A stretch of DNA of 64,000 nt from Schizochytrium sp. TIO01 (lineage: Eukaryota > Sar > Bigyra > Thraustochytrida > Thraustochytriidae). Numbering within the stretch: the stretch's first letter is position 1; each line of letters opens with the position of its first letter. Position numbers and translations under genes: made by a program. The notes beneath the pieces were generated by a model that saw nothing but the letters and a program-made list of their open reading frames with translations, did not search any database and was not told where the DNA came from. Below are positions 15,112-48,016 of this stretch, piece by piece. The stretch lies in NCBI GenBank assembly GCA_004764695.1, contig SMSO01000014.1, positions 6,376,029 to 6,440,028 of the forward strand, given 5' to 3'.

Positions 15112-16071
15112 CTCATATTCTTCTTTATTATTGGATATTTGTATTTAGTCTTTGCTTTGTTTGCTCTACAGCGAATAATTAGATTTATTACTTACTTTGT
15201 AACAGAAGGCATCGAAGACTGTGTTTCGTTATTCGTTTCTTTTTTCATATTGTTTGTTTGTTTGTTTGTTTGTTTGTTTGTTTGTTTGTTTGTTTGTTTG
15301 TTTGTTTGTTTGTTTGTTTGTTTGTTTGTTTGTTTGTTTGTTTGTTTGTTTGTTTGTTTGTTTGTTTGTTTGTTTGTTTGTGTGTTTGTTTGTTTGTTGT
15401 TTGTTTGTTGTTGTTTGTTGTTGTTTGTTTGTTTTGTTGTTTGTGTTGTTTGTTGTTGTTTGTTTGTTTGTTGTTTGTTTGTTTGTTTGTTTGTTTGTTT
15501 GTTTGTTGTTTTGTTTGTTGTTGTTTGTTGTTGTTTGTTGTTGTTTGTTTGTTTGTTTGTTTGTTTGTTTGTTTGTTTGTTTGTTTGTTTGTTTGTTTGT
15601 TTGTTTGTTCCAAAGGGAGAATCACTTTGAGATCGACGATCGATCGACGGGATCGCGGTAATGTCCACAGCGAGCGTCGAAGAGGAAAAAGGAACCTCGC
15701 AAGGACTGTGCGGTTGGCCTCTCGACGCGGAAAGACGCCTCAGACAGCTAGCTGCAGCTCGCTTCTTCTCCTTCAGAGGCTCTCATTTCCTCAGAATTCT
15801 GGTTCTCGATTTGGGGATTGTTAAAAAGTTTTCTTTCCCCTTTAAATAAAAAATTCATCATAATACTCATGTGCTGTAAATGCCTTCGATGCCATCAATG
15901 CGTGATGAGTTGGAGAAGATGATATACATATCTATTCAGCGTCTGCTCGGGAAATGGGCACCAAGCTCGCCTGATTGAAGAAATGTTCTCCACACGAGCC
16001 GTCTTTGCGCCTGATATCGATTCCGGGGTCTGCTTGCGGGTTTGGGCGGTATTATTATTACCTATTTTAGA
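15112..16071. other. region dominated by the TTTG array, with small unproven frames
   Basis: Apart from the microsatellite at 15250-15609, a GC-richer segment follows. It holds an ATG-led 62-codon frame at 15661-15849 (+) and, at 15881-16050, coding-looking fragments on both strands. I could not assemble these with credible splice sites. They may be 5' exons or leader of the DnaJ-TPR gene. Confidence 0.4.
15250..15609. repeat. (TTTG)n microsatellite array
   Basis: About 360 bases of TTTG/CAAA repeat. Both ends are perfect, and an interrupted middle (about 15380-15545) mixes TTTG with TTG units. Because neither strand can form a stop codon, the array creates long artefactual frames (Cys-Leu-Phe-Val or Asn-Lys-Gln-Thr repeats) that should not be annotated as genes. 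Confidence 0.97.
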
Positions 16072-24004: not shown

Positions 24005-24487
24005 CGAGTCTCCCTCGTTCGGATTTCCTCGCCGCCTGCCGCCTCCTCGGACAGCCGCGAGAGCAAGATCACGCGGCCCGCGACTACCGCGGCCGCCGCG
24101 CATTGGGTCTCTGTATCTCTCTATCTGTCAATCTATCTTATTAGTTGTTGAGCGCGCTCGCTGTGCTCTTCGACGGCTTAGTTTTGCAAGGCCTCAACCT
24201 CGAACACACGTTCGAGCACCGAGAAGCACAGACTTGGGGCCCAAGTCCGTGTATTTGAGACCTTTGAGAAGAAGTATTGCGAAAGCCCAGACACCTGGAC
24301 TTTTGCGAGCAAACCTATAGAGATACATACCTTCGTGCAGCCGTTCACAGCAACGCGCGATCGAAGTTCTCTCAGCTGTGCACAGTAGGACTCATTCAGA
24401 TACACTCATTCGACAAGTTGAAGGTCGAGGCTTAGGTAGAGCAACAGAAGCAGTAGAAGCAGCAACGGTTTAAATTCTTGATTCAAA

Positions 24488-27450
24488 ATGTCGAGCAAAT
24501 CCAATCTTCTCAACGAGCTCTTCAAGGACCTTGCCACTGGTCCTCGTCAGCTTGCTGGTGGCCCTAAACCTCCTGCGGCACCTCTCTCCAAAGACCCGAA
24601 GGGTGTCTCAAACGTCGACTCCAACGGTGCCTCAAACCAGGCGAACAACACCAACAACCAGCAGCGGATGCGAACGGGAAGCGTCGCGAGCTCCTCCACA
24701 GCTACAACTCCGCCTCCAATGTCGGTGAACCGTGTGGACAGCGATGTATCTTCGTCTGCTGTACTCGCAGCCCCAACGATGCCTTCTCGAAGCCACTCCG
24801 GCACTGCCCTGCAGGTCTTCGCTAAGGCATCTTCGTACGTGGCTAAGACCTCCGCTGCTAAAGCTCTCAAGGCGACGACCATCACGCTCGTCAAGGCCGA
24901 CCCTTCGCAAGTGAGCATGGGCGCTCGCGTAGCTAGCAGTGGTAAATTCATCACGTACGCCAACAAGGCAGGCATGGTGCGCGTGATCCACACGGAATCC
25001 GTCCACACGGGCCTCCTTCGAGGCCACGCAGAGCCCATTGCTGATATGAAGTTCTGCCCGAACCAAGACTCGCTCGTGGCCACAGTTTCCTCGGACGGCT
25101 TCGCAATCGTGTGGGAGCTCAGGCACATGCCAGAGACCGGCAAGGTTGAGTTTAGAGAGGCTATCCGCCTCCACACGAGTAGACCCGAGGAGCCATTCCA
25201 CGGCGTGGAATGGCACGCCACTAACCAGCGCGTGTTTTCGCTGATGCATGGCAACACTATCTCTGTTGTCATGCTTAGCTCCAAACTCTGGAGCGCACAG
25301 CAGGCGGCAGGTCAGGAAGGTATTCCAATTGAGAATGCTCGTTGCGCGTATGCTCAGTTTGCAGGCAATAGCCCGGGCGGACGTGTGCTCAGCGCAAGCT
25401 TTTCAGCTGATGGAAACACCCTTTTAGCAGGCTGTGCGGACGGAACAGTGGCAGGACTCAATGCGTCATCGCTCATGGAGGATGCGGACAGCACGCCTCT
25501 GTCGACGTTGTGGCAGTTATCGGCTGGAGATGGACTTGGTGTATCGCTGTGTAGGTTTCTTAACAGGGGAGATCACTTTCTGCTCACAGCAGTTCGAGGC
25601 AACACCCTTCTAAGGCTGTGGACCTGGGACTCTGGTTCAGTAAAGTACAAACCTTCTCACGAACTTAAGCTCGCGGATGGTGGTCCTCTGTACTCAGCTG
25701 CAGTGGACTCTACTGGGCAGTATGTATTCGTTGGAATTCCCCAACGCAATGTACTTTTGTGCTCCAAGCTTGACACTACTGCAGTGCAACTCGAGCAGCC
25801 TGTGGAATACGAGCTGGACTGCCCTGTGCTTAGCTTTGCTACACGTCGGAGTGCCCCCGAGACCGAGGAGATTTTGTGCCAACAGACCAATGGTATCCAG
25901 TTCTTTTCGTTCTCGCCTGCAGCAGACTATGAGCAGGTGCGACGCCAGTCACCGTCGCCCGTAATTGCATCTCCGGTGCCCACCATGCCTGGTGGTCGTT
26001 CCACCCGCGAGCGTCAGGATAGCGGCCTCATGACACCTGACCAGCTTCAACATCAGCAGCAACAGCAACAGCAGCAACAACAACAGCCCAAAGCTCAGCA
26101 GCAGCAGCAACAACAACAGCAACAGCCTCAGCAGCCTCAGCAAGTCCAACAGGCTCCGCAAGTGCAGCAACCCCAGCATCAACCGCAACCGGTCATGTAT
26201 AGCCAGCAAGCTATGCCTATGCACCACATGCAGCAGGCTAACGGCATGATGTACGGGGCTGGAATCGGCAATCTGGACGAGGCCCTGGCCAGGCACTTGA
26301 GTGCTCTGGAGGCTCGTCAAAAAGAGGTCGCTGACGCCCAGGCTCAAACCTCCCTCGCACAGCAGAAGGGTCTCCTCGAAGTCCTGGCCAAGTCTCTTGG
26401 AGAGATTCCAGAAAATATTGATGACGCTGTGAAGGAGGCGTTCGAGGACGAAGAAGCTGCCGCCGCTCTTGCCGACGCTCTTCTTGTTAAGATTACCCCT
26501 GCCCTAGGATCTGCATTAACAGAGGCCATGGATACTCAGTCTGCAAGCAAGTTCAATGCTGTTGATGCCGTCGCAGCTAAGGTAGCTCAGGCGCTGCGCA
26601 AACCGGCACAGGAGGCATTCTCTGAGGCCATGCGGGTTTCTTTTATTCCTGCCTTCGAGGCTGGTTGTAACAATCTTTTGACACAGTTCCAGCAAGCGGC
26701 ACAACAACTCCAAGCTGCTACTTCAAGCAACGAGTCTGCCCTTGCACAGCAACTCCAGCAGGTTCGAGAGCGCCAGTCAAGCATGGAGTCCACTCTGCAG
26801 CGCATCGAGGCCATGCTTTCTGCATCAAACGGTCGCATGCAGCAGCAGCAACAATCGCCCTCACCGCCTCACCAACAGCAACATCAACAACCATGCAACA
26901 CACCCCTCCTCCCCAGCACACTCCCTCTCCGAACCTCCCATACCAGCAGCACCAGCAACACCAGCAGCACCAGCAAGGCGCAGTACGAAACAGTGCTACG
27001 TCCAAACCAATTTTCGGTGATATTATGTCGCATGTCTCGAATGGCAACTACGAAGGAGCTTTCCTCATGGCACTTAGTGAATCTGATCTTGATCTTGTGG
27101 TCGCAACGTGCAGCTTGGTTGACCCAGAGCGTGTTTTTGGCGGTGACCGGGGTCGTGTTGCACTAAGCCAACGCGTGCTGCTCGCTCTTGTCCAGCAGCT
27201 TAGCGTGGATCTTACTGTTGAGACGCCGCTCAAGTTGCAGTGGATGCAGCGCGGCGCACTGGCGTTGGACCCAAGTGACCCTGATGTTGGTATTCACGTA
27301 GCCCGGGTTATGTCGGATGTGCGAAGCCACATGGAGCAACAGCGCCCTTACATTGTGCAACCGGAAGGCACGGGCGCGTCTCCGAACCGATCTCTCTTTG
27401 AAATGTGCCTCAATATTGTTTCCTCTCGTGCCTCCACGCAGGCCTTTTAG
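24488..27450 (+). CDS. EDC4: EDC4/Ge-1 (VARICOSE-type) mRNA decapping scaffold
   Basis: Proposed join of 24488-26831 and 26879-27450, about 971 residues. EDC4 (Ge-1, plant VARICOSE) scaffolds the Dcp2 decapping complex in cytoplasmic P-bodies. Residues about 140-480 form a WD40 domain (GLLRGHAEPIADMKF, VSSDGFAIVWEL). A Gln-rich linker follows (26048-26190), then a long helical, Ala/Gln-rich coiled-coil region (about 600-780). The C-terminal globular domain includes YEGAFLMALSESDLDLV, SQRVLLALVQQLS and LDPSDPDVGIHVARVM, the classic Ge-1 C-terminal signature that mediates oligomerisation and decapping-factor contacts. The C-terminal domain lies in a different frame from the rest, and the switch occurs in a Gln/Pro/His-rich linker near 26832-26893. 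A 47-nt GT-AG segment or a small indel would explain it. Domain order and family identity are secure; the exact join is not. Confidence 0.88.
26048..26190 (+). repeat. CAG/CAA repeat (poly-Gln) in EDC4
   Basis: Mixed CAG/CAA codons encode a Gln tract of about 30 residues, broken by Pro, Lys-Ala and Val. It separates the WD40 domain from the helical region and is a likely site of length polymorphism. Confidence 0.9.
26832..26878 (+). other. candidate 47-nt intron in EDC4
   Basis: GTCGCATG...CAACAG, phase 1. Removing it fuses the helical-region frame to the C-terminal-domain frame. The ends are GT-AG but the donor is weak, and the sequence is a repeat-rich Gln/Pro linker. A microsatellite-type indel or an assembly error is an equally good explanation. 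Confidence 0.35.
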
Positions 27451-28324: not shown

Positions 28325-31221
28325 TTACTCGTGGGAATAATCGTGCGCATCTCGTTGACAAATAGGACATTTGGCATTATCTAAAAGCCAGCGAACGATG
28401 CAATCTGAATGAAAACGACTGTGTTGTAAAGTATACCGAAAGTTGAAACAAGAGTTAGTGATAATTCTTTTCCTTGATGATTGGGAAAATGGCCTTCAAG
28501 ACACACTACCTTTCTTCATAGACACAGGTAAATTTAAATTTGGCAGGGAAAACTTACTGAAAACATGGTAATGTGCGTAGGCAATCGCCGTCGCAGTAGT
28601 CACCCAGGCAAATAAGACAATTCATTTGATCACCTTGGTAATTACCCAGACGATATTCATGTTCAGGGAGACGCAAAATTTCTCGTTCACTCATGCCCAT
28701 GCTGCGGCGTCGTCGCAATCCCGAGTTATCTGCGAACTGCACTGTCAGCATGCTTGCGAACAATTGTTCCATCAAAGATTCCTCGCGGCCGCTTCCACCT
28801 CGTAACATTGAAACTCGCGGTGCATTATCTGTGATGGCATCACCTGATTCATCAACGCTGCCACCAGACGGCAAGTTAAATCTAACCTGTGCATCGTCAT
28901 CGCCACGAGCCCCAAGAGTGAAGCGAACATTGCGACGAGAGACCCGGCGTGAGGGTGAGCGATCATCGAAGCCCTCTAGACTCTGAATGACAAAGTTTTG
29001 TACTGCTTGATCGGCCTCTGCCTCTGAACTACACCCTGCGAGGCTCATGCCTAACCGTCGTTCAATATCTCGACGTTCAGTGATACGAAGCGCACCAAGA
29101 ACTTCACATACAGATTGAACACGCGCTTCAAAAGCTGGACCTTCATTGAAAACTGTGCTTAAGGCACCACTTGTTGGTGATAATTGTTCACCCTCAGTCA
29201 AAGTGGCTCGATCTCCCGCTGGCTCTAATTCCGTATCTTCACTATTCTCGCCTTGTATCGCCAAATCGTCATTTGCGGGTGCTTTCGGCTGACGCTGTGC
29301 CATGGGTTGTCCCAGCTGCGGGGCCAGGTGCAGGAGCAGGAATGGAAATAGGCGACCCCGATCGGACACTGCTGTGGTCGAAATCATCATGGAAATTAGA
29401 TTTTTCTTCGTCACTTGTATGCCCCTCGTTATTGTTTCTGGCATCATCATCGTCTTCTGCTTCTGTTGTAGAAGTCGAGTCAACGAATCCACAGCCAGCA
29501 GCACGATCTCCAGAAGAAGAACTCTCAGCAATTTCCTGAACCATTGTGTTTACCGAAGGCGAAGCGCGCGCTTGCAACGAACAGAGGGCGCAGGTTAGAG
29601 TTTTTGACGATACATGGCGAGAGGATATGCGATTAATCCCACCACGTCCTAACCCGGAGCCCAACGTGCTATTCACGTCTCCCTGCTGAATATACTGTAA
29701 ATGCCCGCAAGAATCATTCGAGCATTTGAACTGCATAGGCGGAAGAGGCTGCTGCATGTCAAGTGGTGGTACTGAAGCTGAGCCGTCTGCACCTCCGTAA
29801 CCACTGAGGTTTTCTTCAGTACGAAAGCCCCGAGGGCCTTCAAGTTCGACAGCTCGATCCCTAGCTTGCATGCCAAAAACACATGAAATCTGAAAATTAT
29901 CATCTAACGTGTTCGCCAAACTCAGTACGTCGATTGAATTTTTGGGGACATTAACTAACACAAGTTGTTCTCCTTCGGGGTATTGATCATATATGGCTGC
30001 ATCCTCCACAGGTTCTGCGCTTGCCACATTCACATGCACCTGGAAAAGTACGCGGCCGGGCTGCCCGGGTTCTAAATGGTACACTTTTAACACAACGTCA
30101 CGATCTACGCGACGATTGATGTCAAAAGCAACATCAGCAGTCATTGAGTAAAGTGCTGGGCGAATTCCTTGCACCATCGTTGAATGTAAGAAATCGCTCT
30201 GATCTCCATTCATGACCATGATGTAGGGTCGACAGCCACGTTGTGCTCCTAAATGTTCGGAGAGAACACGCGGCGCATGTGAAAGAATTACTTTACGTAA
30301 AATCATCCGTCTCCAGCGTGTTGTCTCTGCGTCGAATGGGACGGCAGGGCGCAAATAGCCCATTGTGCCCACTACACGTAGTGCACTTGCTGATACATCG
30401 TGTTCGTCATTTGTAGAGCCTTTTGAGGAATTGTTAGAGCCACGGCTCCACCGCCTAACAGCACTGTTTCCTTTTGTTCTAACCTTTATGCGTGTGTTTT
30501 TATTACATCGCGACAGGGGGTTGTTATCGTTTGACGGGCTCGACGTTGTGGTTTCAGTGGCATGAGCGCTTGTGCTTGTCAGTTGCAAGCTATTCACGCC
30601 ACGAGCACGGGCCTGTCCAAACATAGAGAGCGCCGAACAAATGTCGGCACTTCGTCCCTGGGATGAAGAGCTGTACAGGACACAAGCTATTGCTAAGAAT
30701 GCAAGGTGTGCTTCTGAAGAAGCAAGGACTACGGCAACCCGGCCAGGCGCTTCACGAGTCCAGAAGATAACCTTGCGGGCATCATCCATACAGAAACAGG
30801 GAGCAACAATACCAGTACGGCCGGGGTCTCCTGAGGAGGTGATATGCAAAGCATCATTAGGGAAGACAGTCTCGAGACCACATTGGTCACTAGTCATTCC
30901 GAAAGAGAATATCGCAAAAGAACGCTTGCTGCGAGCAAGCCCCTGTGCAACGCGTTTCAGTGAGGATTGAAAACGATTAATTTGCGAGGCCGATGGGGAT
31001 GCGCCAGCTTCGTCTTCTTTCTTGACAATCTCGTATAGCTGTTGCGCCTGACGATTCTGCAATATTAGGATCTGGGGTGTAAGTGCCGTCAAGCCGTAAT
31101 GGCTCCATTTTGGATTCGGCTGACCACCATTGCGCTCGCGACTTGATGCAAATTCACGAATCTTTGACCAAAAAGATCGCTTGGGGCTCTGTTTCGTCTC
31201 AAGTTCCTCTGTGCCAACCAT
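28325..31221 (-). CDS. PTEN-like pseudophosphatase and C2 domain fused to a RING-H2 finger
   Basis: Three exons (31221-29368, 29315-28558, 28418-28325) give about 901 residues. Residues about 35-310 resemble a PTEN/auxilin-type dual-specificity phosphatase (AIFSFGM, ADICSALSMFGQARARG, YLRPAVPF). At the catalytic loop, where HCxxGxxR is expected, VVLASSEAHLAF is found, so the nucleophilic Cys and the Arg are missing. A roughly 70-residue Ser/Asn-rich insertion follows. Residues about 328-430 match a PTEN-type C2 domain (GCRPYIMVM, VVLKVYHLEPGQPGRVLFQ), which binds membranes in that family. A small Cys pair region lies near 505-560 (CSNDSC, CALC), followed by acidic linkers. The C-terminus is a complete RING-H2 finger (CLIC, LPCFHRFHSDC, CPIC), typical of E3 ubiquitin ligases. 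The inferred role is a membrane-directed ubiquitin ligase that uses a dead phosphatase/C2 module for targeting. The RING assignment is secure; the PTEN-like assignment is by pattern only. Confidence 0.72.
28419..28557 (-). other. intron, 139 nt, splitting the RING-H2 finger
   Basis: On the minus strand the donor is TTTCA|GTAAGT and the acceptor ACACAG|TCG. Splicing turns the truncated LPCFQ-stop into LPCFHRFHSDC and adds WLLDNAKCPIC, which completes the C-x-H-x2-H-x2-C...C-x2-C ligand set exactly. This is the best-supported intron in the window. Confidence 0.95.
29316..29367 (-). other. candidate 52-nt intron in the PTEN-like/RING gene
   Basis: GTCCGA...CCGCAG, phase 0, with a pyrimidine-rich second half. 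Removal joins the C2-side frame (ending DFDHSS) to the RING-side frame (LGQPMAQRQPKAPAND). The donor is non-consensus and lies in a Pro/Ala-rich linker, so a small indel is possible. A real upstream RING fusion still requires some frame connection here. Confidence 0.5.
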
Positions 31222-35601: not shown

Positions 35602-35705
35602 TAGATTTGACTAGATAGATACATAGATAGAGAGATAGAGAGATAGATAGAGAGACAGATAGAGAGACAGATAGAGAGACAGATAGAAATCTTAGATAGA
35701 TAGAG
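35602..35705. repeat. GATA/GACA/GAGA compound repeat
   Basis: Tandem GATA, GAGA and GACA units over about 100 bases in the probable leader or promoter of the BEACH gene. Confidence 0.85.
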
Positions 35706-35782
35706 ATACTTTTTGTTCATTCTCCTTTCTCTTCTTTCTTCTGCAGCAGATCGTCAGCAGATCAGCGCCGCGTTGGGCGGGC

Positions 35783-38700
35783 ATGAGGTCCTTCTTCAAC
35801 CGCTTCAGGGCCGGCGGCGGCGGGTCCGAGGCAGGATCCGGCGGTGGCAGCGGGGCTGGAGGAGACGCGAGGACAGGCGCAGGAAGGCTCGAGGGCGGCA
35901 GGAAGGCAAGCGCAGCCTCCGCAGCGGGTCTGAGCGGAGCGAGGACAGGGGCTTACACGCGCAAGAATGGCGGCAGGCAGAATCAGGAGCCCTCAGGGAG
36001 GAGAGGGAATCGTAGTATGAAAGCAGGGTTCGCGCGAAGGGCACACAGGACAGTGGCAGCGTACTTTGCGGATGCGGAACTGGAGAAGGCCATGACGCAG
36101 GATAAAATTAGGGATAATTTGCAACTTGCTGAAGACGTTTTGCCGGGCCTCGTAGCAGACGCGCTGCTGCAGAGCGGGTCAAATTTGGTGGAGGTTATGG
36201 CGGTTCTCAGTGGGCATATTCGTATCAGCGTCGGGGCGGGCCAGTCCACGGTTGTCACGCTACAAAAAGCTTCGGTAGCGAGACAAGGTTTGTGTTTCCA
36301 GACGTTGGACGTCCTGGAACAAATCTCGTGCGCGCTTGAAGATGGCCCCGACGCATGTGCTGCAGTGGGACTGCCAGCGCAGCTCCTCAATGCGCTGGCG
36401 CTGTACTTTGGAGTTATCATCTCAGAAGACTGTAGCTCTTACACCTTGAGATCTGAAGAGGCACTTAGCCCCGACCGTATGCGGCTCGACTCCATGGAAG
36501 AAGGTTTTATGACAGAGGGGGATACCGATGACGAAGACGACGAGGCCAGCGAACATCGCAGAGGATACTTTATGGGGGTAGAGTCTCCCATTGAGGTCTA
36601 CCAGGGAGCCAATGGCGCGCAGGCAAGCCCATTCGACACCATGGCCAAGGCCCAATCTGAGACAGAAGGTAAAATGCTCCGCTCTCAAAACTTTATGCAA
36701 CGTTTGGTAGCAACACTCTGTCATTTACTTCCTAACGAGTCGGTCCTCCTTAGCTTGCTGCGTGAGCCCTATCATGGTCTACGGATCTTATTCTTCATGG
36801 TTGAAGCCACGAGGGCACGGGACGAGGTTACCTCTTTGGTGAAGGCTGTGTCGGAAAGCCTTATGCCCGCTGCTGTCGTGGAGCGTATCGTCGAGGACCG
36901 CTTGCTGGCACGCTGGATGGACGAAATTCGTGAAAACCCCTTAAATATATCTAGCGTTGGCCTTCTGACATGCATTGTGCAACTGCTCGTAGCATCATGC
37001 CGTTCAAGCCAGCGGATGCTTGACGACTACCAGGAATACGGAGGTTATGTGTTATATTATGACGTTCTCTGTGCGGTGCCTAGCATGACAGAGGTACTTC
37101 TTACAAATCTACGCCAGCTTGTCTACCTTGGACCAGGATTTGCAGAAGCTGAGGAAGATGCAGAGCATCTTGGGGTTGTTCATTCCGTTTTTCTTGCCCG
37201 AAACGAGCCTGCATTTGCTGTTGTGGCTGGCATGCTCTGCCATTTAGAGTATGCTATTTGCGCACAAAACCGCCAAGCTCAGGAGAAAATATGGCATCAC
37301 CACGTTTTTGCATGGCGGTATATGTCCATGAGCGAAAATCCAACGAAGTCCGCACTCGACCGGTATCGTCGTCCAATTGCAAACTCGGATCTTTTGCGAT
37401 TACCTTTGTTGCATTGTGTCTTGACGATTTACTCTTCTAATCCTGTTAACTTTGGGATGCTTGATGAAAAGTTTGGTGTCATGAGCACTTTGCTTGTTAG
37501 CCTTGGTGCAAGCCTTGATGTGCACGAAGAGTTTCTTTTCATGGTCGCTAAGCTCCTTGAACTTATATCAATGGGAATGGACTATCGCCCTGCGTCTCTT
37601 CTCGAAACGATATGTAAACGAACATTACCAACATTGGTCATTAACCGTCGAGTCAAGTACAAAAAGGTCGAAAATCCCCTTGAACAACTTGAGATTGACG
37701 CTCGTGCTACGGCTGCTGCAGAATTCCCCGCCCTACTTGAGGAGCCACCTACTCAAGGCCCTACAGCAGATGCTTTAGCAGCCATTGCTGGTCCGCCTCC
37801 TCCTCTCGACCCGGAGACCCTTGCGGAGGTCAATCAACGAATTTCAGGAATTCCATTCCTTTCAGCAGATCAAACAGCGTCATCATCTCCAATCTCTGAT
37901 CCAAACTCAGCGACCTCCCATGACTCCTCGCAAGTAGCTGCCGGGACATTTATCATGCACGTGTTATGCCAGACTCTAGTAAAAATGATTCGAAGCGATG
38001 AGGGATACCGTGCTGAGCTTCGAGAAGCTGGACTCCTTTCACAAGCAATCTTCCCCTTCCTCTTTCTGGCCGCTGATGCACCCTCAGAGGAAGATGACCC
38101 TGAGCTTTTCAATATGCTGTCGAGCTGGTGTTCTTTATTATGCGATATGCTGGATGGGGATCCAGTAAATGAGCATGAATTGCGCAAAACTAACGCTCAC
38201 CTATCCTTGTACAAACTCATTCTGCGTCGACCTACACCACCGCTTCTCGTACTTTTACAACTTGCACGGGGTGATAGCCCTTACCTTGAGCAAGATGTTA
38301 ATGCACTGTTTGAGATTCTTCAACAGCAACCTGAGGGGTGGGCTCTAAAATGGGAAATCCTTGGTACTCTTATTGAGATGATGCGGAAGAACCACACTGT
38401 AAAAGATTTGATGCGCCGTCTTGGCGGATTCGAGATAATGATGTATGTTATCTCTGGCCTTGAAGGCAAATTCTTACCAGAAGTTTCTGAAGAGGATAGC
38501 AGACAAGCAATTGATGTATTGGAGCGTGTCTTTCAAGTTTTTACCGTCGCTATGACAGGTAATCACCTCGTCAATCGGGCCTTTGTTAAAGAGGAGATTC
38601 GGTATGAATCCATGTCATCATCATGCCAAATCATTGGTGTGTTTGGTTCAACCTATGATCGTAATCTCGTTGATATGGTCATTGATTGCATTACCGAGGC

Positions 38701-41700
38701 AAGTGAGATTCGCCTCAGTCGCAATCGAAGCCAAATGTATCGCATGAATGAAATGATTGATTGTGATACACTTCGAATTCGTAATGTGGACCCGCTTCAA
38801 ATACTTACCATCCGCCTTTCGCTTCTCAGCGAAGCAGGCCTCGGCCAGCTTTTGACGCGACTTGCGTGCATGGTACATGGAGACCATAGTGAACAAGCTG
38901 CTAACTGCGAAATTCTGTGCGAAACCTGGCTTCCTAATCTGCTCATGGATGAGCTCTTTGTGAATATTCTTGGCAATCAGGAACACCCTCAGCATGAGAC
39001 TGCCATCTCTTTGTTGGGCAGCCTTGAACGCCACCGCTCTACTACTCGATCCGTCGAGCGTCTTCTTGGTAAGATTTTTGACATTTACAATAACGAAGAA
39101 ACCACAACCCCACAAGACTACGCAACTGTGGTTGCACTTTTGAAAGTTCTTAACCTCGCTGCAAATCCTGGAAATGACGATGCCTTCTTTTGTCCCTATG
39201 TACAGATGTCCGGGCCCAGCGATGTTTTTATCCTTGCAGACGAAGCAAGTTCCAGTCGTGATGGAGGCAAAGCTGCCCCGCGCCAAGTCGCTAAACAAGC
39301 AAGCCATCGCTCCTCTGTGCAGGACAATGCGCCAGGAAATTTGCATATTGCAGGCCTTGGCAAGCGGCCATGGCCTCCAACTGTCGGCTATACTCTATCG
39401 TTTTGGGTATGGCTTGGAAAAGAGGCAGGTGAGCCCATCGTACTTGCTTCCATACGAAACAAAGAGGGTCAGCAACTTTTGCGTGTCACAATTGAAGATG
39501 GAGGGATGGTCCGGTGTCGCACCTGTGGCCCGCATTCTGCAGCGGGGACAAGTTCACCTCGCTCCACTACGATTGCCAGCATCCCGGCGGCAGTCGGCGC
39601 GGCAGCAGGGCTCGGCACTTCAATGCGAGGCTTGGATCCATCTGCAAGTTCAGCTTCTCTTAGCTCTGGAAGTAGTACAAACGGTATGGGTAGCTCAGGC
39701 CAGATCTTTGACGAACTTGGTTCCAGCTCGACTTTACCGGAGCTCACAAGAGCTGCACTTGCAGCTGTCACTGCATCTGCCGAAGCAAGTGCCGCAGTTT
39801 CTTCTTTATTAGGTATTTCACGAAGCAGTGGGAACAACTCTCCTCCTTCTCCAAATACGTATCACTCAAACGCTGGTTCTAGCCCTCGGGAGCGCTTCCT
39901 TCAAGATCTCGCTCCATACGAAATTCTTTTTCCAAACCTCAACCTTCGCCCCGGACACTGGCATCACTTGGTACTCGTGCACAAATCGGTGAGCAACATT
40001 GGTCTTATTATCGACAAGTCTCTTAATGGACGCATGACTCTCTTTTGTGATGGCGTGGAAGTTGCCACTTCTAAGTTTCCTTATCCTACTTCAGCTAACA
40101 ATGGAGGACTCAAGACATCAGTATTTATGGGTGTTGATCCAGTGGTCTCTGCGACCAGACGATCAAGTGATCCTGTTCGTTTCTGGAGATTGGGTCCCAT
40201 GCTTATGCTCGACATCCCCAAAAACGACACGTTTGCGCGTGACATGTATTTGCTTGGTGTGAACTATAATGGTTCCATGAGTCGTAGCTGCGCAACCTTA
40301 CGCGACGCCCGCTCATTCACGACAGTGCTTCTAGAGCAGGTTTTTGCATACGAGCGCGGCAGCGACGAGGCAGACGCAGGATCGGTTACAAGTCACCTTG
40401 AGAGGCTCGGTCTGCCGAGTACTAGCTGGAAAGATCTCCTACAGCGCAACAGCGAGTTCTTGCATCAACCCGGTCATGTTGACCTCGACAATGTCATTTG
40501 CTCTTTTTATGCGGGTCGTCGAACAACTCTTGAAGGCTTTAAATCCATTGATACAAAATCGCTAGTGGAAAAGAAGATTCGGGAGCTTGATGTCCCGCGC
40601 ACAGTTCTCGTGAACAGTGCAACCACAACTGCACCGGGTTCCGGTGAGCAACAGATTCTTGCTGTTCTGGGCGGTGGGGCGTTCGCAGTTACTCCATTGC
40701 CTCTCTGTGATACTGTACGAAGTGTTGGTGGGGTGACAGTGATTTTGCGTCTCTTGGAATTAAGCCCTGACCCAAATGTCACAGTGCTAACACTTCGTTT
40801 GCTTCGAAATATTATTGGTGCTCACGAATACAATCGTTTTGCCTTTCGGCAGTCGAATGGTCATCGGTTGCTTGCGTGGATTCTTTTTGGGCAGGCACAA
40901 CGCACGACAGAGATTTTTACCCCAGAAGTTTTTGAAAATATGCTCAATCTTGCAGTACTTGGCGAAGGAGAGGACGCTCTAATTGTTGATCCAGAGATGT
41001 TACATCAACTCGTGCTCAATCATCAGGTGTGGCGTGGTTCGGAAAAATCTGGTTTCCAACGCTGGAGATTTGTAATTATCATTTTGCAGTGGTTGAGCAA
41101 CCTTGTTGATGTCGATAATCTCAACGTAAGACTCAACCTTGACGGTCTACAGCGCCTTGGTATTATTGACTGGGTTTTGGAGATGATTCTCACACTTGCA
41201 ATTGATATTCCAAACGAAGAGGAGATTATTTCTGATGTTCTTGCAGCAGCGCTTCAGTTCTTGCATAATATTATGAAACAACGTCTAGTTAGACGCTCTC
41301 TCTTTGAACTTTTTAAGCATATCCTTGTGTCTCTTCCTTATGAAGTAGACGAAGACGAAGTAATGGGACCTATCCCAGAAGATGATAGTGTCCCTCTTAG
41401 TACTCCTGCGAGTTCTGTAGATCCACGGCTCCGAACACGAGAGTCGGATGATGTTTCTTCTTCATGGGATGTGGGGTCCAATCCGTGTTCTCCGCGTCAT
41501 GCAGGTGACGGACTGGCTTCACCCTATTTCTCTTCGCCAAAGTTTGGAGGAAAGTCTACCCGGCGCCGGCGTCGCTCTGTTACTGATATGGTGAAAAGCA
41601 AAAACAAGGCCAGTCGTCGTCTTGCTGCATTTACGGTAGATGATGAAATCTCTGAGGCCGGGGAAGCTATTCTTCGTAAAATTCGTTGCATGCTCTTTGC

Positions 41701-44700
41701 ATTGCTGCTCGAAATACCTGAAAAGATTCCGCACGACTCAACCCGAACAGCTGCTGAGCATAGAACCACAATCTATGCTATCTTTTCTGATATACTCTCT
41801 GTGCATTGGTTTACCTGCCTCATTCGTCCGGAGAGTGATACCGAAACTTTCGTACTTGCAGTTCGACTGCTTGTAGAAATTCTTCAAGAGAGCCCAGATT
41901 TCGCTCGTCACTTCATTGCCCATGGAGGTTTTGCTATGCTTGTAGAAGGTGGAAAGTCTCACAAAGAGCTACAAAGCCTCGCCTTTAGTCTGCTTGTACT
42001 ACTATGTGGCATCCCTGGACACCTGATGGGATCTCCGATCACCTATGAGGGAAAGGAGCAGTCAAGACCAGTGATAACATCACCAGTCCTTGGTTTAAAG
42101 CCGGGCTCGCCGTCAGGCTTTCCTTCTTTAGATGAGCATTGCAAGAATGTCGAAGACCCTTCTCCCTCAGATGACACAAGTCCCTCCACTGCACATAGTG
42201 ATGCTGATCGCATAAGCAGCTTTGTAAGTCCTGGAGTCAAAAGGCGTTTGTTAAGCCGCAAGTCTACAGTTGATGCCATTTCAAACGTAGATATGTTCCG
42301 TACAAGATTTGTCGAGCAATTCCGCAATCTGATGCTCTCTCTCCCGCGCTTTACACCGCCGCGCTGGTACCTTGATGCGCATGAGTCACTTATGAAACTC
42401 CTTAGTGGTGCCCTCGTTCGCATCCGAGAACACGAAGGTGCACCCTCGTATGTGCAGGACCTTAGTGCGCCACCTAGCAATCGTCGTAGCCTTATCAAGT
42501 GGAAGCGTAATGATGTCGAAACGCTTTGCAATGATGTTTGCTCTTGTTTGGTAGTGACAACACAACGATTCCCTGAATCTGTAGGATTCTTCGAGACAAG
42601 TGCATTTATAGATCTCTGCTCCGAGCTAATGTTCACCGATGCCAAAACGAGCTTAAGCAAGAACGAACTACTAGAACAGATGCCTGGCCCGGAGGAGTCT
42701 GCATTATCATTACCAGATGATATAAAGTCAGAAACTGCCACGACAGAGGAGACAATAGAGGAAGATAAGAAGAGGATCGACCTCGACATTTCTTCTCAAC
42801 AAGCGCTATCTTCAGATAAGGATATATCTTCCTCTAGTGGAAAGTTTGCGGGACCTGTTTCGCATGGAATGCTTGTCTTTTACAGCGAGCTTTTATGCCG
42901 TTCAGTTGCAGAAGATTCCTCCAATGTGCCAACATCCACGACCAACAGTGGACCTATTCCTCTCACCGAACACCCGCTTCTGCGTGCTAAAGAAGGCCGC
43001 AAATTGCTTGAAACATTTATGCAATCATTCCCTCTAGAAGCTCCGACTGAGGATGCGTTGATTTTTCAGACAGCTCTGATTCAGGCTTTCTTGCCTCGCC
43101 TCACGCTCATGCTAGACGATCGTACATGGGAAGCACGACGCAGCGCTGGGAGCTTGATGAAATTACCGCACAATGCTGACCCTAATAAAGTTGGCACATT
43201 GGTTTGCTTTCTCGCAGGTAGAGCATCTTTTGGTTGGATTCCTTTTGCGGAGCACACAATTTTGGAGCTCACGCTACAGGCCAAATCTCGTGTTGACACT
43301 CTTGAATTTCGGGAGCGTATTCTGCGTTGCGCGAGAGGCCTCATCCTATGGTCTCTTGACGTGGCTCTGCTCAATCACACCAATCACCTGGTCGGTCAGT
43401 TATTGCAGGCTGTACGGAGAAATTATAATGAATTGCGCACAAACGAGGTGATTAGCAATCTTTTGAAACAACAAGGATCATCGCCTTCTGACAGAGATGC
43501 ATATGTACCACAAACCTTGATCCCGGAAGCATTGCAATCTGAGTTCAATGCTTATGATGAAAGTACCCTCTTTGTTGCATGCTTTATTGGGCTCTGCCTT
43601 GAACATCTTGAATTAGCTTTCACATCTGGTGATGAAGAAGCGCAGCAACTACTTGCAAGGAACCTTGCTAAAGCTATTGCAAGTCGACAGCGACTATTTC
43701 TCCAAGAAACAACCATGCAAGACGGATTTCGCCTTTTAGTTCTCGGAAATTCAGAAGCGGCCATTGCAAACTCTGTACCTATCGACACGGAACAACACCC
43801 GAGTGCAATTCCATCATTTCTTGCCTGGGCCAAGACGCGCCATGACGAAGGTACACTTCGCGCTCGTTGGTTAATGCAGGTTTGGGCTCGTATCAAGCGC
43901 ATTGAACTTTTTGGCAGCCATCAGCAATGTGGATTGACTCCACCTGCTGTGCTTGCTTCCACGGCAAGCACTTTCAACATGGAGTTCCCAGAAAAACGAA
44001 AGTATTTGCATATGGAAGTAGAGTACATGAAGCGACAGAACAATAAACGTCGTTTGAGCAACAATGACTTATCGAAGCGTGCTAAGGTTTCCCCTGAGCG
44101 CTTACTGATGGAGGCAAAAACCCTCATGAGTACCACTCAAGTTGAAGCTGTAGAAAGACATCGTAGATGGCTGCGTATCAGTCTTGAGCACCTGCTTCGT
44201 GGTAAACGAGTATGGAAAGACGTGGCTCAATCTTATGAGCGTGGTGTGCACAGTTCCTTTTTTCAGAATCCTGCTGCGCTTAAAAACCCTCTCGTATCTC
44301 GTGAGCATTACCTTCTTGATTGCAGTGATGGCCGTGACCGCATGCGGAGACGTACACAGAGAAACCTTGAGTTTATCAACACGTTTCGTTTTGCAGGTTA
44401 CCTCGCGGATCCAACCCAATTGTCTCCTGAGCCCCTTGACATGCCACTGCCGCCACCACTACCAGGTGTAAATGTCGATGCGCTGCCAACACCGCGTTCT
44501 CAAACTCCTGCTGGCCGTGGGACTGGAGAGATTAACGACGATGAACAGGAAGATGAGATGAATATGGTTCTGCGAACACTGCGAGTTCCAAGATCTGATA
44601 GCAAATCACGACGCCCTTCAGCTCTTGACAGTGGAGAGCTTGACCATAATGACGAAGAGTATGGAGAAGAGGAAGAAGATAATGAAGATGATGATTCTTT

Positions 44701-47700
44701 GTTGGAGTCTGAGACACTTGGCAGAACAAGTGATAAACAAGACTCGGCAAGTCCCAGGGGAGCTCGAAGAAGCAGCGCAGACCAAGACCTAGAAAAGGAT
44801 AATGAGGACTCGGCATCCATCGATGACGACCTTGAGAAGTCTGAAATTGAAGCAAATATCCCGGTACATGAAGATTTCCGGTTTACTTCCGAGCTGGAAG
44901 TTGCCCGTCCCAGTATGCTTCAAAAAAGTGAGTCGCTTCGTATTCCTCAAAGTGGAGTTTTGCCGGAATTGCACAATCAGGCAGATGATAAAGAAGAAAG
45001 CACTGGGCCAACAGTATCTACTCCTAAGCTACCACCAACATCGCCCTTGTCGTCAAAGTCAAAGTCAAGCTCATTTGCTCAAACAGGAGTAAAGGTGACT
45101 CAACCTTCTGAGGAGAATGTAAACGTAGAAGAAGCATTGGAGAAGGGCACGAGTGAGCAATTCGGCGAAGCTGAATTCTCCGAAAAGTTGATGCCACCTG
45201 AAATTGATGTTTCACATAGTGAGAGTGAGGTTGTAGTTGAATCACAGGTTTCGGGAGAAACTGATCCAGATCTGCATCACGCGCATGTTACGCACAAGCG
45301 TTTCTCCCTTGAAGCGGAAATGAATGCCCTTGGTCTCGATAATGAACAGCGAATCATTACAGAGCTGGATTATATGGATCAACAAAGTAGCGAAAATGAG
45401 CGAATTGTAAACTGCGCTGATGTGAGTGGCATGGAGGCCAGCAAAGGAATCTGCCTTTTAAGGGAGACGTCGTTATATTTTATTTCAAACCATCGTGCTT
45501 ACCGTAATCCAGATCGTACTGCAAAGAAACTGTACCTTATCGAGGAACTTCCCCAGTCTGAAAGGACAGAGAGCCCAACGTTTGAGGTGACTCTGAATGG
45601 AGAGTATGTCCATATCTTGTCACATGGAGATTCGGTGGACTTGCTTGAAGTCCCAGGAAAAGGAGTTCGACGTCTTTTATCAGGAATCTCAAGTGCCTCT
45701 CAATCAGGTGAGGCCGACGAAGCTGCTAATGAAGTGCCCAATACAACTTACGAGGTTCGAAAGGTCCGCTATGACCAGATGAGAGAAATGTATCGTCGTC
45801 GGTACATGTTCTGTGAAGTTGGTATTGAGTTCTTTTCTGTTGACGGAGCTAACTTTTTACTTGTTTTTGATTCACCAGAGGAAAGAGACTGGGTTTTTAC
45901 CAAGGTTCTAGCCAAAGACATGCCCCACTTGATTATCTCAAAGTCTAGTACCATGCAGGGATTAGCTCAGTCATCACTAATGAATCCGGAGGGACTGTCT
46001 CTGGGGGCTCTTATGGCTCCTTTCAGACGTTTTCGTGCTTCAGTGACCCGGCAGTGGCTAGATGGTGAGATTTCTAACTTTTCTTATCTGATGTACTTAA
46101 ACATGCTGGCTGGTCGGTCGCATAACGATTTGACCCAATATCCAGTTTTCCCATGGATTCTACAGCAATATACTGAAGAGACAATTGACCTCGAAGACCC
46201 GTCTTCGTATCGTGATTTGTCTAAGCCAATGGGAGCTTTAAACCCTGACCGTGCTCGACAATTTCAAGAACGTTACTCGTTGCTTGCTTCAACCGCGGCA
46301 GAAACACAAATGCAACCATTCCATTACGGTACGCACTACTCGTGTTCTGCTTATGTCTTGCAATATCTCATTCGCCTCGAGCCCTACGCCAGTATGGCTC
46401 TCGAGCTTCAAGGTGGTCAATTTGACCGTGCTGACCGGCTTTTCTACTCTTTCATGTCAAGCTGGCGTAGTGTGTCAGGTCAAGACTTCAATGCTCAGGA
46501 TGTACGGGAATTGATCCCTGAATTTTTCTACTTGCCTGAGTTTCTTTACAACAGAAACAAATTCGATTTTGGTACTACCCAGCGTGGAATTCGCGTTGAC
46601 GATGTAGAACTTCCAAAGTGGAGTGAGAATGACCCATACTATTTCGTGCGTTTGCACCGTCGAGCTCTGGAATCCCGATATGTATCTGAACATCTCCACG
46701 AATGGGTGGATCTCATTTTTGGCTACAAGCAGCGCGGTCGTGCAGCCATTGAAGCTCAAAATGTGTTTCATCCATTGACCTATGAGGGTGAGGTGAATCC
46801 TGATGAAATTGAAGACCCGGTGCTGAAAAAGGCGGCTCTGGCACAAATCCACAACTTTGGTCAGACCCCGCGAAAGCTATTTTCAAAGCCTCATCCAAAA
46901 CGCATTGTTCCGCACATCGTCTCAGGAAGGCCCATTGGAGAAGTTGATATTGCATCAATCCAATGGCATCAACATTTGGCACCTCCTTTGGTCATACCAG
47001 GCGCATTTAAGCGTCCAGACATTCTGGAGCCAGGGGAAAATGGTGTCCTGCAACATCCTGGCCACTGCTCCTTAGTGAAGCAAGAATCTGGCTTCATTCA
47101 GAAACATTTTGGCAGCATTGGCCCCGCGCAAGAACTCTTGGTGTGGAGTGACAAGGTGGTAATGCTTCTAGGCAACGTGACAGCAATGCAACCATTTATG
47201 AACCATTACCTAAGTTGGGGCTCTGAAAATGGTTCATTGCGTCTCCACGCTGTGCCCCCGTCCGGTGGTGTGAATAACGTTTTGATGCCAGGAAAGGTTG
47301 TCGCAGTATTTGAAGCACTTCATATTGGGCCAATTACTGCGTGCAGCGTGATTGATGATGGTACACAGATCTGGACAGGTGGTACAGACGCTTTAGTGTC
47401 AGTCTGGCACCTCCGGAAGTCCAAGGTGCGGGGCGGAGCATGGATGCTTGACCAATTGCAAGTGCTGTCATCGCATAGCGGACAGATCACCTCATTGGCA
47501 ACTTCACAAAAACAAGGAATTGCTGTTTCCGGTTCGCGAGACTGTTCTGCCGTACTTTGGGACCTTGAAAAGAAATGCTTCATTCGCCGTTTAGCCCGTC
47601 AGACCGGGCCCGTCAATCAGGTTTCGATCAACGAAGCCAATGGCAACATTCTGACCCTTTCAGGAGCTGATTTATGTTATTGGCATGTAAATGGTGAACC

Positions 47701-48016
47701 TCTCGTCACGATGCATATGACACCTGTTGTATCCGGAGTGCGTCTTGAGCATGTGAAGTGCTGCATTGCCACAGCATGTGATGATTTCCAGGATGGAATC
47801 ACAGTTATTACAGGCCATGCTGGAGGCGGGGTAGCATTGTGGGACCTTCCAGAGGGCCCTGGGCGACGTCATCTTGCCCTGCGCGTTTTCTTGCAAACTG
47901 GGTACAATCAACCAGTAACCGCGCTTGCTTTAGATAAGGCTCAACGTCGACTTGCGTGCGGTAACGCGTCTGGCCAATTGCGTCTCTGGACATCTGCAGA
48001 GCTGTATTCGTACTAA
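35783..48016 (+). CDS. giant BEACH-WD40 protein (WDFY3/ALFY-SPIRRIG type)
   Basis: One uninterrupted frame of 4077 codons from the ATG at 35783. After a Gly/Arg-rich start, most of the protein is armadillo/HEAT-like helices. A concanavalin A-like (LamG) domain lies at about 1195-1480 (YTLSFWVWLG, PGHWHHLVLVH). A long acidic/Ser-rich linker (about 2900-3190) follows. A PH-BEACH domain spans about 3206-3390 (IVNCADVSGMEASKGICLL, FLLVFDSPEERD). The BEACH domain spans about 3407-3706 (RWLDG-like QWLDGEISNFSYLMYLN, HYGTHYSCSAYV, ELIPEFFYLPEFL, DLIFGYKQRG). WD40 repeats run from about 3780 to the end. The order LamG, PH-BEACH, BEACH, WD40 is that of ALFY/WDFY3 and plant SPIRRIG. No C-terminal FYVE finger is present, so it resembles the SPIRRIG form. 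Such proteins act in membrane trafficking, selective autophagy or mRNP-body biology; which applies here is not visible. Confidence 0.95.
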   Translation: MRSFFNRFRAGGGGSEAGSGGGSGAGGDARTGAGRLEGGRKASAASAAGLSGARTGAYTRKNGGRQNQEPSGRRGNRSMKAGFARRAHRTVAAYFADAELEKAMTQDKIRDNLQLAEDVLPGLVADALLQSGSNLVEVMAVLSGHIRISVGAGQSTVVTLQKASVARQGLCFQTLDVLEQISCALEDGPDACAAVGLPAQLLNALALYFGVIISEDCSSYTLRSEEALSPDRMRLDSMEEGFMTEGDTDDEDDEASEHRRGYFMGVESPIEVYQGANGAQASPFDTMAKAQSETEGKMLRSQNFMQRLVATLCHLLPNESVLLSLLREPYHGLRILFFMVEATRARDEVTSLVKAVSESLMPAAVVERIVEDRLLARWMDEIRENPLNISSVGLLTCIVQLLVASCRSSQRMLDDYQEYGGYVLYYDVLCAVPSMTEVLLTNLRQLVYLGPGFAEAEEDAEHLGVVHSVFLARNEPAFAVVAGMLCHLEYAICAQNRQAQEKIWHHHVFAWRYMSMSENPTKSALDRYRRPIANSDLLRLPLLHCVLTIYSSNPVNFGMLDEKFGVMSTLLVSLGASLDVHEEFLFMVAKLLELISMGMDYRPASLLETICKRTLPTLVINRRVKYKKVENPLEQLEIDARATAAAEFPALLEEPPTQGPTADALAAIAGPPPPLDPETLAEVNQRISGIPFLSADQTASSSPISDPNSATSHDSSQVAAGTFIMHVLCQTLVKMIRSDEGYRAELREAGLLSQAIFPFLFLAADAPSEEDDPELFNMLSSWCSLLCDMLDGDPVNEHELRKTNAHLSLYKLILRRPTPPLLVLLQLARGDSPYLEQDVNALFEILQQQPEGWALKWEILGTLIEMMRKNHTVKDLMRRLGGFEIMMYVISGLEGKFLPEVSEEDSRQAIDVLERVFQVFTVAMTGNHLVNRAFVKEEIRYESMSSSCQIIGVFGSTYDRNLVDMVIDCITEASEIRLSRNRSQMYRMNEMIDCDTLRIRNVDPLQILTIRLSLLSEAGLGQLLTRLACMVHGDHSEQAANCEILCETWLPNLLMDELFVNILGNQEHPQHETAISLLGSLERHRSTTRSVERLLGKIFDIYNNEETTTPQDYATVVALLKVLNLAANPGNDDAFFCPYVQMSGPSDVFILADEASSSRDGGKAAPRQVAKQASHRSSVQDNAPGNLHIAGLGKRPWPPTVGYTLSFWVWLGKEAGEPIVLASIRNKEGQQLLRVTIEDGGMVRCRTCGPHSAAGTSSPRSTTIASIPAAVGAAAGLGTSMRGLDPSASSASLSSGSSTNGMGSSGQIFDELGSSSTLPELTRAALAAVTASAEASAAVSSLLGISRSSGNNSPPSPNTYHSNAGSSPRERFLQDLAPYEILFPNLNLRPGHWHHLVLVHKSVSNIGLIIDKSLNGRMTLFCDGVEVATSKFPYPTSANNGGLKTSVFMGVDPVVSATRRSSDPVRFWRLGPMLMLDIPKNDTFARDMYLLGVNYNGSMSRSCATLRDARSFTTVLLEQVFAYERGSDEADAGSVTSHLERLGLPSTSWKDLLQRNSEFLHQPGHVDLDNVICSFYAGRRTTLEGFKSIDTKSLVEKKIRELDVPRTVLVNSATTTAPGSGEQQILAVLGGGAFAVTPLPLCDTVRSVGGVTVILRLLELSPDPNVTVLTLRLLRNIIGAHEYNRFAFRQSNGHRLLAWILFGQAQRTTEIFTPEVFENMLNLAVLGEGEDALIVDPEMLHQLVLNHQVWRGSEKSGFQRWRFVIIILQWLSNLVDVDNLNVRLNLDGLQRLGIIDWVLEMILTLAIDIPNEEEIISDVLAAALQFLHNIMKQRLVRRSLFELFKHILVSLPYEVDEDEVMGPIPEDDSVPLSTPASSVDPRLRTRESDDVSSSWDVGSNPCSPRHAGDGLASPYFSSPKFGGKSTRRRRRSVTDMVKSKNKASRRLAAFTVDDEISEAGEAILRKIRCMLFALLLEIPEKIPHDSTRTAAEHRTTIYAIFSDILSVHWFTCLIRPESDTETFVLAVRLLVEILQESPDFARHFIAHGGFAMLVEGGKSHKELQSLAFSLLVLLCGIPGHLMGSPITYEGKEQSRPVITSPVLGLKPGSPSGFPSLDEHCKNVEDPSPSDDTSPSTAHSDADRISSFVSPGVKRRLLSRKSTVDAISNVDMFRTRFVEQFRNLMLSLPRFTPPRWYLDAHESLMKLLSGALVRIREHEGAPSYVQDLSAPPSNRRSLIKWKRNDVETLCNDVCSCLVVTTQRFPESVGFFETSAFIDLCSELMFTDAKTSLSKNELLEQMPGPEESALSLPDDIKSETATTEETIEEDKKRIDLDISSQQALSSDKDISSSSGKFAGPVSHGMLVFYSELLCRSVAEDSSNVPTSTTNSGPIPLTEHPLLRAKEGRKLLETFMQSFPLEAPTEDALIFQTALIQAFLPRLTLMLDDRTWEARRSAGSLMKLPHNADPNKVGTLVCFLAGRASFGWIPFAEHTILELTLQAKSRVDTLEFRERILRCARGLILWSLDVALLNHTNHLVGQLLQAVRRNYNELRTNEVISNLLKQQGSSPSDRDAYVPQTLIPEALQSEFNAYDESTLFVACFIGLCLEHLELAFTSGDEEAQQLLARNLAKAIASRQRLFLQETTMQDGFRLLVLGNSEAAIANSVPIDTEQHPSAIPSFLAWAKTRHDEGTLRARWLMQVWARIKRIELFGSHQQCGLTPPAVLASTASTFNMEFPEKRKYLHMEVEYMKRQNNKRRLSNNDLSKRAKVSPERLLMEAKTLMSTTQVEAVERHRRWLRISLEHLLRGKRVWKDVAQSYERGVHSSFFQNPAALKNPLVSREHYLLDCSDGRDRMRRRTQRNLEFINTFRFAGYLADPTQLSPEPLDMPLPPPLPGVNVDALPTPRSQTPAGRGTGEINDDEQEDEMNMVLRTLRVPRSDSKSRRPSALDSGELDHNDEEYGEEEEDNEDDDSLLESETLGRTSDKQDSASPRGARRSSADQDLEKDNEDSASIDDDLEKSEIEANIPVHEDFRFTSELEVARPSMLQKSESLRIPQSGVLPELHNQADDKEESTGPTVSTPKLPPTSPLSSKSKSSSFAQTGVKVTQPSEENVNVEEALEKGTSEQFGEAEFSEKLMPPEIDVSHSESEVVVESQVSGETDPDLHHAHVTHKRFSLEAEMNALGLDNEQRIITELDYMDQQSSENERIVNCADVSGMEASKGICLLRETSLYFISNHRAYRNPDRTAKKLYLIEELPQSERTESPTFEVTLNGEYVHILSHGDSVDLLEVPGKGVRRLLSGISSASQSGEADEAANEVPNTTYEVRKVRYDQMREMYRRRYMFCEVGIEFFSVDGANFLLVFDSPEERDWVFTKVLAKDMPHLIISKSSTMQGLAQSSLMNPEGLSLGALMAPFRRFRASVTRQWLDGEISNFSYLMYLNMLAGRSHNDLTQYPVFPWILQQYTEETIDLEDPSSYRDLSKPMGALNPDRARQFQERYSLLASTAAETQMQPFHYGTHYSCSAYVLQYLIRLEPYASMALELQGGQFDRADRLFYSFMSSWRSVSGQDFNAQDVRELIPEFFYLPEFLYNRNKFDFGTTQRGIRVDDVELPKWSENDPYYFVRLHRRALESRYVSEHLHEWVDLIFGYKQRGRAAIEAQNVFHPLTYEGEVNPDEIEDPVLKKAALAQIHNFGQTPRKLFSKPHPKRIVPHIVSGRPIGEVDIASIQWHQHLAPPLVIPGAFKRPDILEPGENGVLQHPGHCSLVKQESGFIQKHFGSIGPAQELLVWSDKVVMLLGNVTAMQPFMNHYLSWGSENGSLRLHAVPPSGGVNNVLMPGKVVAVFEALHIGPITACSVIDDGTQIWTGGTDALVSVWHLRKSKVRGGAWMLDQLQVLSSHSGQITSLATSQKQGIAVSGSRDCSAVLWDLEKKCFIRRLARQTGPVNQVSINEANGNILTLSGADLCYWHVNGEPLVTMHMTPVVSGVRLEHVKCCIATACDDFQDGITVITGHAGGGVALWDLPEGPGRRHLALRVFLQTGYNQPVTALALDKAQRRLACGNASGQLRLWTSAELYSY

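Follow-up and report, generated by a model that had tools for sequence, protein, structure and literature searches.

A putative RING-H2 ubiquitin ligase with a dead PTEN-like phosphatase/C2 unit in Schizochytrium sp. TIO01

Relation to described PTEN-type and ligase architectures

In tensin and auxilin, a dead PTP-like domain is described as being followed directly by a C2 domain (PMC3507883, in part). Formins with PTEN domains that have probably lost their activity are reported from stramenopiles, and the eroded PTEN domains of plant formins may serve localisation (Grunt et al., PMC2386819, in part). The PTEN domain of the moss formin For2A binds phosphoinositides (PMC3817587, in part). As far as these sources describe them, the stramenopile, plant, and moss formins thus provide a precedent for a dead PTEN unit acting as a positioning part.

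We analysed a candidate gene of Schizochytrium sp. TIO01 located at 28325..31221 on the minus strand of a 64,000-nucleotide stretch of contig SMSO01000014.1 (hereafter, the window). The whole proposed gene consists of two coding frames, one clear intron, and one unexplained frame change, and its product would comprise 918 residues provided that a single base accounts for the frame change. The coordinates, strand, and start given in an earlier note on this DNA were right: the first ATG downstream of an in-frame stop is the one at 31221, and the stop codon lies at 28327-28325. We favour, with modest confidence, a single gene that would encode a RING-H2 ubiquitin ligase carrying a dead PTEN-like phosphatase/C2 unit at its N terminus as its protein-docking part. 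The combination of dead phosphatase, C2 domain, and RING-H2 finger put forward in that note remains the best reading; its C2 and RING parts are firm, and its phosphatase part finds support only when taken together with the C2 domain. A match to Mu Gp27 (E values of 0.039 and 0.0088), below its cut-off, was regarded as chance.

As in auxilin/GAK and tensin, a PTEN-type unit, here of a probable PTP-like region and a C2 domain, lacks the full signature (PMC3507883, in part); the hallmarks of those proteins, namely the J (DnaJ), kinase, SH2, and PTB domains, gave no match here at E<=10. The dead-PTEN formins (plant class II and stramenopile PTEN-FH2) likewise carry an eroded phosphatase/C2 unit before a different effector (PMC2386819, in part). 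Their effector is FH2, whereas the effector here is a RING, and the P-loop is far more eroded here. No FH2 match was found at E<=10 in the first-frame protein (P0001), in P0002, or in the finger. The C2 domain of the NEDD4-type HECT ligases (WWP2) is of a different type. In these enzymes, too, a C2 domain precedes the ubiquitin ligase (PMC9034101, in part), but the ligase is of the HECT type rather than a RING and there is no PTP remnant.

Of the other PTEN-like genes in this genome, L002 is a PTEN whose loop is intact, L003 is auxilin-like, L004 is eroded, and L005/L012 (G000:C13:3495500-3501714) is a formin whose PTEN loop has eroded and whose FH2 domain matched with an E value of 8.4e-65. 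The PTEN domain of this formin is probably dead, because its loop reads FCKNGVHTCR, and we count the formin as a further precedent for a positioning role of such units. A CCDC53-like match was also observed in the formin gene, and the stretch in which its frame changes contains six consecutive C.

The genome comprises 37 contigs totalling 64 Mb; when it was searched, P0001 and the second-frame protein matched only themselves (5 and 2 candidates scored, respectively). In two collections that are unlikely places for protist relatives, P0001 gave 4 pattern stretches (viral_contigs) and 39 pattern stretches (genome_contigs), and the spliced second-frame protein gave 3 (viral_contigs); none of these was confirmed. 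A PTEN-RING fusion appeared in none of the titles or abstract starts covered by our literature search, the coverage of which lies mostly outside subscription journals, and we know of no such fusion. The pairing of a PTEN-like unit with a RING appears to be unusual, judging from a single case in one genome.

PTEN-like phosphatase and C2 regions

The PTEN-type C2 domain lies at 29842..30366 on the minus strand. In the Pfam protein scan, PTEN_C2 (PF10409) matched residues 307-449 with an E value of 6.5e-5, the alignment covering positions 7-131 of the 133 in the profile, and the score of 23.1 bits was borderline with respect to the curated cut-off of 27.1. In the genome search (5 candidates scored), the domain was the weakest of the 5 PTEN_C2 places; it scored 26.8 bits, or 27.2 bits counting neighbours in frame, and passed the cut-off only in the latter case. 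The hhalign score was 35.1 against a profile of six members (four other PTEN-like genes of the same genome, an auxilin chain, and a PTEN chain), whereas the controls reached at most 17.3 (100 shuffles) and 17.7 (65 unrelated stretches of the window). The earlier claim of a PTEN-type C2 domain is borne out by the Pfam match, borderline by its curated score, and by these 165 controls, and we regard the presence of the C2 domain as firm at the level of sequence comparison.

The AlphaFold2 model of the C2 region was built without an alignment and had a pLDDT of 39.2. Auxilin (3n0a) took the top row of the Foldseek comparison with a probability of 0.99, but with an E value of 9.3e-3 and a TM-score of 0.26, and PTEN ranked seventh among the solved structures. 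Most of the best 50 of the 1126 matches at E<=10 were C2-domain proteins, judged by title or known family, with TM-scores of 0.30 or less by query length; none of the matches reached E<=0.001. The model is poor, and this result was taken as minor support only.

At E<=10, none of the phosphatase models of Pfam matched the PTEN/auxilin-type phosphatase-like region (30577..31116, minus strand). Residues 31-228 alone scored 21.9 against the phosphatase profile, compared with 20.3 for the best of 100 shuffles. One of the 65 unrelated stretches scored higher (22.4), and the six members of the profile, eroded ones included, reached 92.5 to 263.8 when each was scored with itself omitted. These values favour the reading that the RING is preceded by a C2 domain only, the N-terminal region being no phosphatase remnant. 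The alignment of the region together with its own C2 domain, after removal of the low-complexity insert and with three choices of cut, points the other way. The local score climbed from 37.5 for the C2 domain alone to 45.2, 50.8, and 49.4, and was matched by shuffles in 1/60, 0/60, and 0/60 trials and by unrelated stretches, drawn for all three cuts from the same window proteins, in 0/65 trials per cut (1/375 control trials overall). The joint global score was matched by none of 40 shuffles for each of the three cuts. The remnant would also stand in the right order, because a PTP-like domain precedes the PTEN-type C2 domain in tensin and auxilin (PMC3507883, in part). A C2 domain without any phosphatase remnant is distinctly unlikely in our estimate, and the view that the region before the C2 domain is a dead PTEN phosphatase remnant appears supported, if weakly. 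The PTEN/auxilin-type phosphatase that had been proposed is therefore supported jointly with the C2 domain and is close to noise by itself. A larger AlphaFold2 model, also built without an alignment (pLDDT 32.5), gave 52 Foldseek matches at E<=10, none of them at E<=0.001, and no PTEN or PTP-type entry was present among the best 50 of the 52.

The stretch VVLASSEAHLAF (residues 164-175; 30697..30732, minus strand) aligns onto the PTEN P-loop. At the HCxxGxxR signature it reads LASSEAHL, in which H, C, G, and R are replaced by L, A, E, and L. Since 0/4 signature residues are retained, the protein cannot be a phosphatase of the PTEN class, in agreement with the earlier description of a catalytic loop devoid of Cys and Arg.

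The earlier note had further suggested a phosphoinositide- or membrane-directed ubiquitin ligase. The former P-loop contains no Lys or Arg, and has one His and one Glu. Residues 381-395 and 427-445, which we take to correspond to the CBR3 loop and the c-alpha-2 helix of PTEN, contain one Arg and one Lys (the latter at the edge), respectively, and the Lys/Arg cluster is missing from both. Positive c-alpha-2 residues are described as necessary for the membrane localisation of PTEN in Dictyostelium (PMC4161299, in part), which likewise speaks against lipid targeting. Two basic elements remain. The N-terminal tail (31117..31221, minus strand) contains a moderately basic amphipathic stretch at residues 13-30, the lipid-helix score of which (1.67) was equalled by 172/5999 stretches in other window proteins, and the low-complexity insert (30367..30576, minus strand) carries a strongly basic cluster with a charge of +7 at residues about 240-263. 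Either element could possibly provide an unspecific membrane contact. These elements, together with phosphoinositide binding by a moss class II formin through its eroded PTEN domain (PMC3817587, in part), are in favour of a lipid-directed ligase. With the Lys and Arg of the P-loop and the basic patches of the C2 domain gone and the remaining elements unspecific, the suggestion is weakened, and we consider a ligase of this kind unlikely. Docking to a protein is preferred over lipid targeting because the P-loop and the basic patches of the C2 domain are lost.

Between the C2 domain and the linker, a possible zinc-binding pair was observed at 29581..29724 (minus strand). Its Cx4C and Cx2C pairs are 38 residues apart and resemble an unnamed zinc ribbon, and the stretch matched no Pfam family at E<=10.

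RING-H2 finger and frame change

The second frame extends from 29549 to 28557 on the minus strand. Its part at 28558..29309 comprises linker, an RNF38-like LPEHEYRLGNYQ lead-in, and the first half of the RING, and taken alone it ends in the middle of the finger. The finger becomes complete only after removal of a GT-AG intron of 139 nt (28419..28557, phase 2), which interrupts a His codon after its first two bases; the last exon (28325..28418) supplies the second half of the RING-H2, ending in CPICQRDAHDYSHE, and then the stop. The spliced finger matched zf-RING_2 (PF13639) with an E value of 2.8e-13 and contains the C3H2C3 zinc ligands in order, as the earlier note had anticipated for the finger after splicing. 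We consider the presence of a RING-H2 finger to be firm on this sequence evidence.

RNF38 was the closest of the 59 distinct solved sequences at E<=0.001 (E value of 3.4e-17), and the 70 aligned residues take in the RING and the stretch just before the finger. RNF44 is grouped with RNF38 as RING-H2 ligases, and outside this region RNF38 bears no resemblance to PTEN. None of the eight zinc ligands of the RING is lost here, and the CxIC and CPIC motifs are kept together with the Trp that follows the sixth ligand. The linchpin after the last zinc Cys is Gln (CPICQ) instead of the Arg of RNF38 (CPICR), so the finger departs from RNF38 at this position. In RNF38, the R454Q substitution is reported to weaken E2~Ub binding 11.6-fold and to be one of those variants whose activity with UBE2D2 is minimal (PMC12326332, in part). 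The Gln linchpin therefore predicts a slow or E2-selective ligase, and a putative, slow ubiquitin-ligase activity is favoured.

The first frame (P0001) encodes 650 residues from the ATG at 31221 to the stop at 29271-29269 on the minus strand, contains an acidic, Ser-rich linker (29302..29499) that reads as coding by codon usage, and overlaps the second frame by 281 nt. Codon scores trained on the other window genes favour the first frame until about 29315 and the second frame thereafter, with the best frame-change point within 29272..29326 (minus strand). The PTEN-like protein could in principle end at the stop of the first frame, with a separate RING protein starting at the second-frame ATG at 29303, which is followed by G. 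The two genes would then share 35 nt on the same strand, which leaves no space for either a terminator or a promoter. The codon score of the first frame turns negative ahead of its own stop (-5.5 over 29313-29269, stop included), by which point the second frame has become positive (1.7 over 29315-29271). Two separate genes are hardly probable in our judgement. Because the 281-nt frame overlap and the switch in codon bias leave no room for a gene boundary, we infer that the PTEN-like and RING frames likely form a single gene.

In regard to the nature of the frame change, the interval 29326-29272 accommodates no intron with a convincing donor, the best GT-AG pairs there having poor ones. In an intron candidate of 238 nt (29553 to 29316), the donor is fair and the acceptor good; the candidate was rejected, as it would delete about 79 codons that show coding bias. 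The splice continuation into the RING proposed earlier is thus upheld for intron 28557-28419, which completes the finger, and is unconfirmed between the PTEN-like and RING frames. We analysed five frame breaks in the genome (this one, an EDC4/Ge-1 gene, a frame pair at 16-19.8 kb, the L005 formin, and a PfaA gene), and 0/5 has a strong donor, which favours an assembly indel at 29326-29272. The shift lengths modulo 3 at these breaks are 1, 2, 1, 2, and, for PfaA, 1; because the breaks need shifts of both kinds, programmed frameshifting as a habit of the genome is not favoured. At this site, a weak intron or a +1 frameshift confined to the site is a less favoured possibility.

The window looks eukaryotic in its gene content and in having an intron, and a PUFA-synthase PfaA match at C4:608161-617209, above the curated cut-off counting neighbours in frame, points to a thraustochytrid. 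This PfaA gene (L011 220-9316; G000:C4:607900-617400) is divided between two frames, of 1031 and 2172 residues, that overlap; the frame changes within 18 nt (L011 3128-3145), where no strong intron candidate was found, and the break is likely an assembly indel. PfaA in thraustochytrids is known as one unbroken frame, and because it is also split here, an assembly indel is the likeliest explanation for the frame change of the candidate gene. Because one clear intron (the RING intron, donor GTAAGT) served as the only donor yardstick, this indel is inferred rather than seen. In favour of a decaying pseudogene marked by a real frame change stand the break itself and the finding of no second copy of the gene among the candidates scored in the genome. 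Coding bias is kept on either side of the break, all zinc ligands of the RING are kept across the intron, and other genes of the assembly, including a PUFA synthase, are similarly broken; we regard decay as most improbable.

Several observations were made on neighbouring genes. The EDC4/Ge-1 gene at 24482-27450 of the window (plus strand) matched Ge1_WD40 (E value of 6.3e-11) and EDC4_C (1.7e-23), and switches frame near 26838 in a CAG/CAA-rich stretch. The break may be a real intron: in a fair candidate of 155 nt, the weak donor is preceded by CAG and the acceptor is very rich in pyrimidines. A long repeat of a short unit at about 15180-15820 reads CLFVCLFV in one frame. A single open frame of 4106 residues occupies 35696-48013 (plus strand); an Armadillo-like model (1.5e-11) was the sole match to its first 1835 residues at E<=0.001.

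Proposed working of the putative ligase

In the working scheme that we propose, which is built by reasoning from the parts above, the PTEN-C2 unit would neither hydrolyse phosphate nor hold it via the P-loop. By analogy and by exclusion, it may serve as a scaffold on which a protein partner docks. The long acidic, flexible linker would let the RNF38-like RING reach the docked partner. The RING with its Gln linchpin would be slow or E2-selective and would depend on being concentrated with its substrate. We put forward only tentatively, as possible rather than probable, that the protein is a lineage-specific ligase in which a PTEN-C2 pseudophosphatase was turned to docking the substrate for a RING-H2 enzyme whose linchpin has been tuned down.

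The finger would be a natural RNF38-type RING carrying a Gln linchpin, the substitution for which measurements in RNF38 are already reported (PMC12326332, in part). If the proposal is true, a RING would now stand behind a dead PTEN unit, as FH2 does in the formins and the J domain in the auxilins, and ubiquitin ligation would join the short list of activities found behind such units. The PTEN unit would have been reused even after the loss of its phosphate-holding loop and of the basic patches of its C2 domain. Its use as a scaffold would then be separable from lipid reading, and the gene would offer a concrete test of what dead PTEN units bind.
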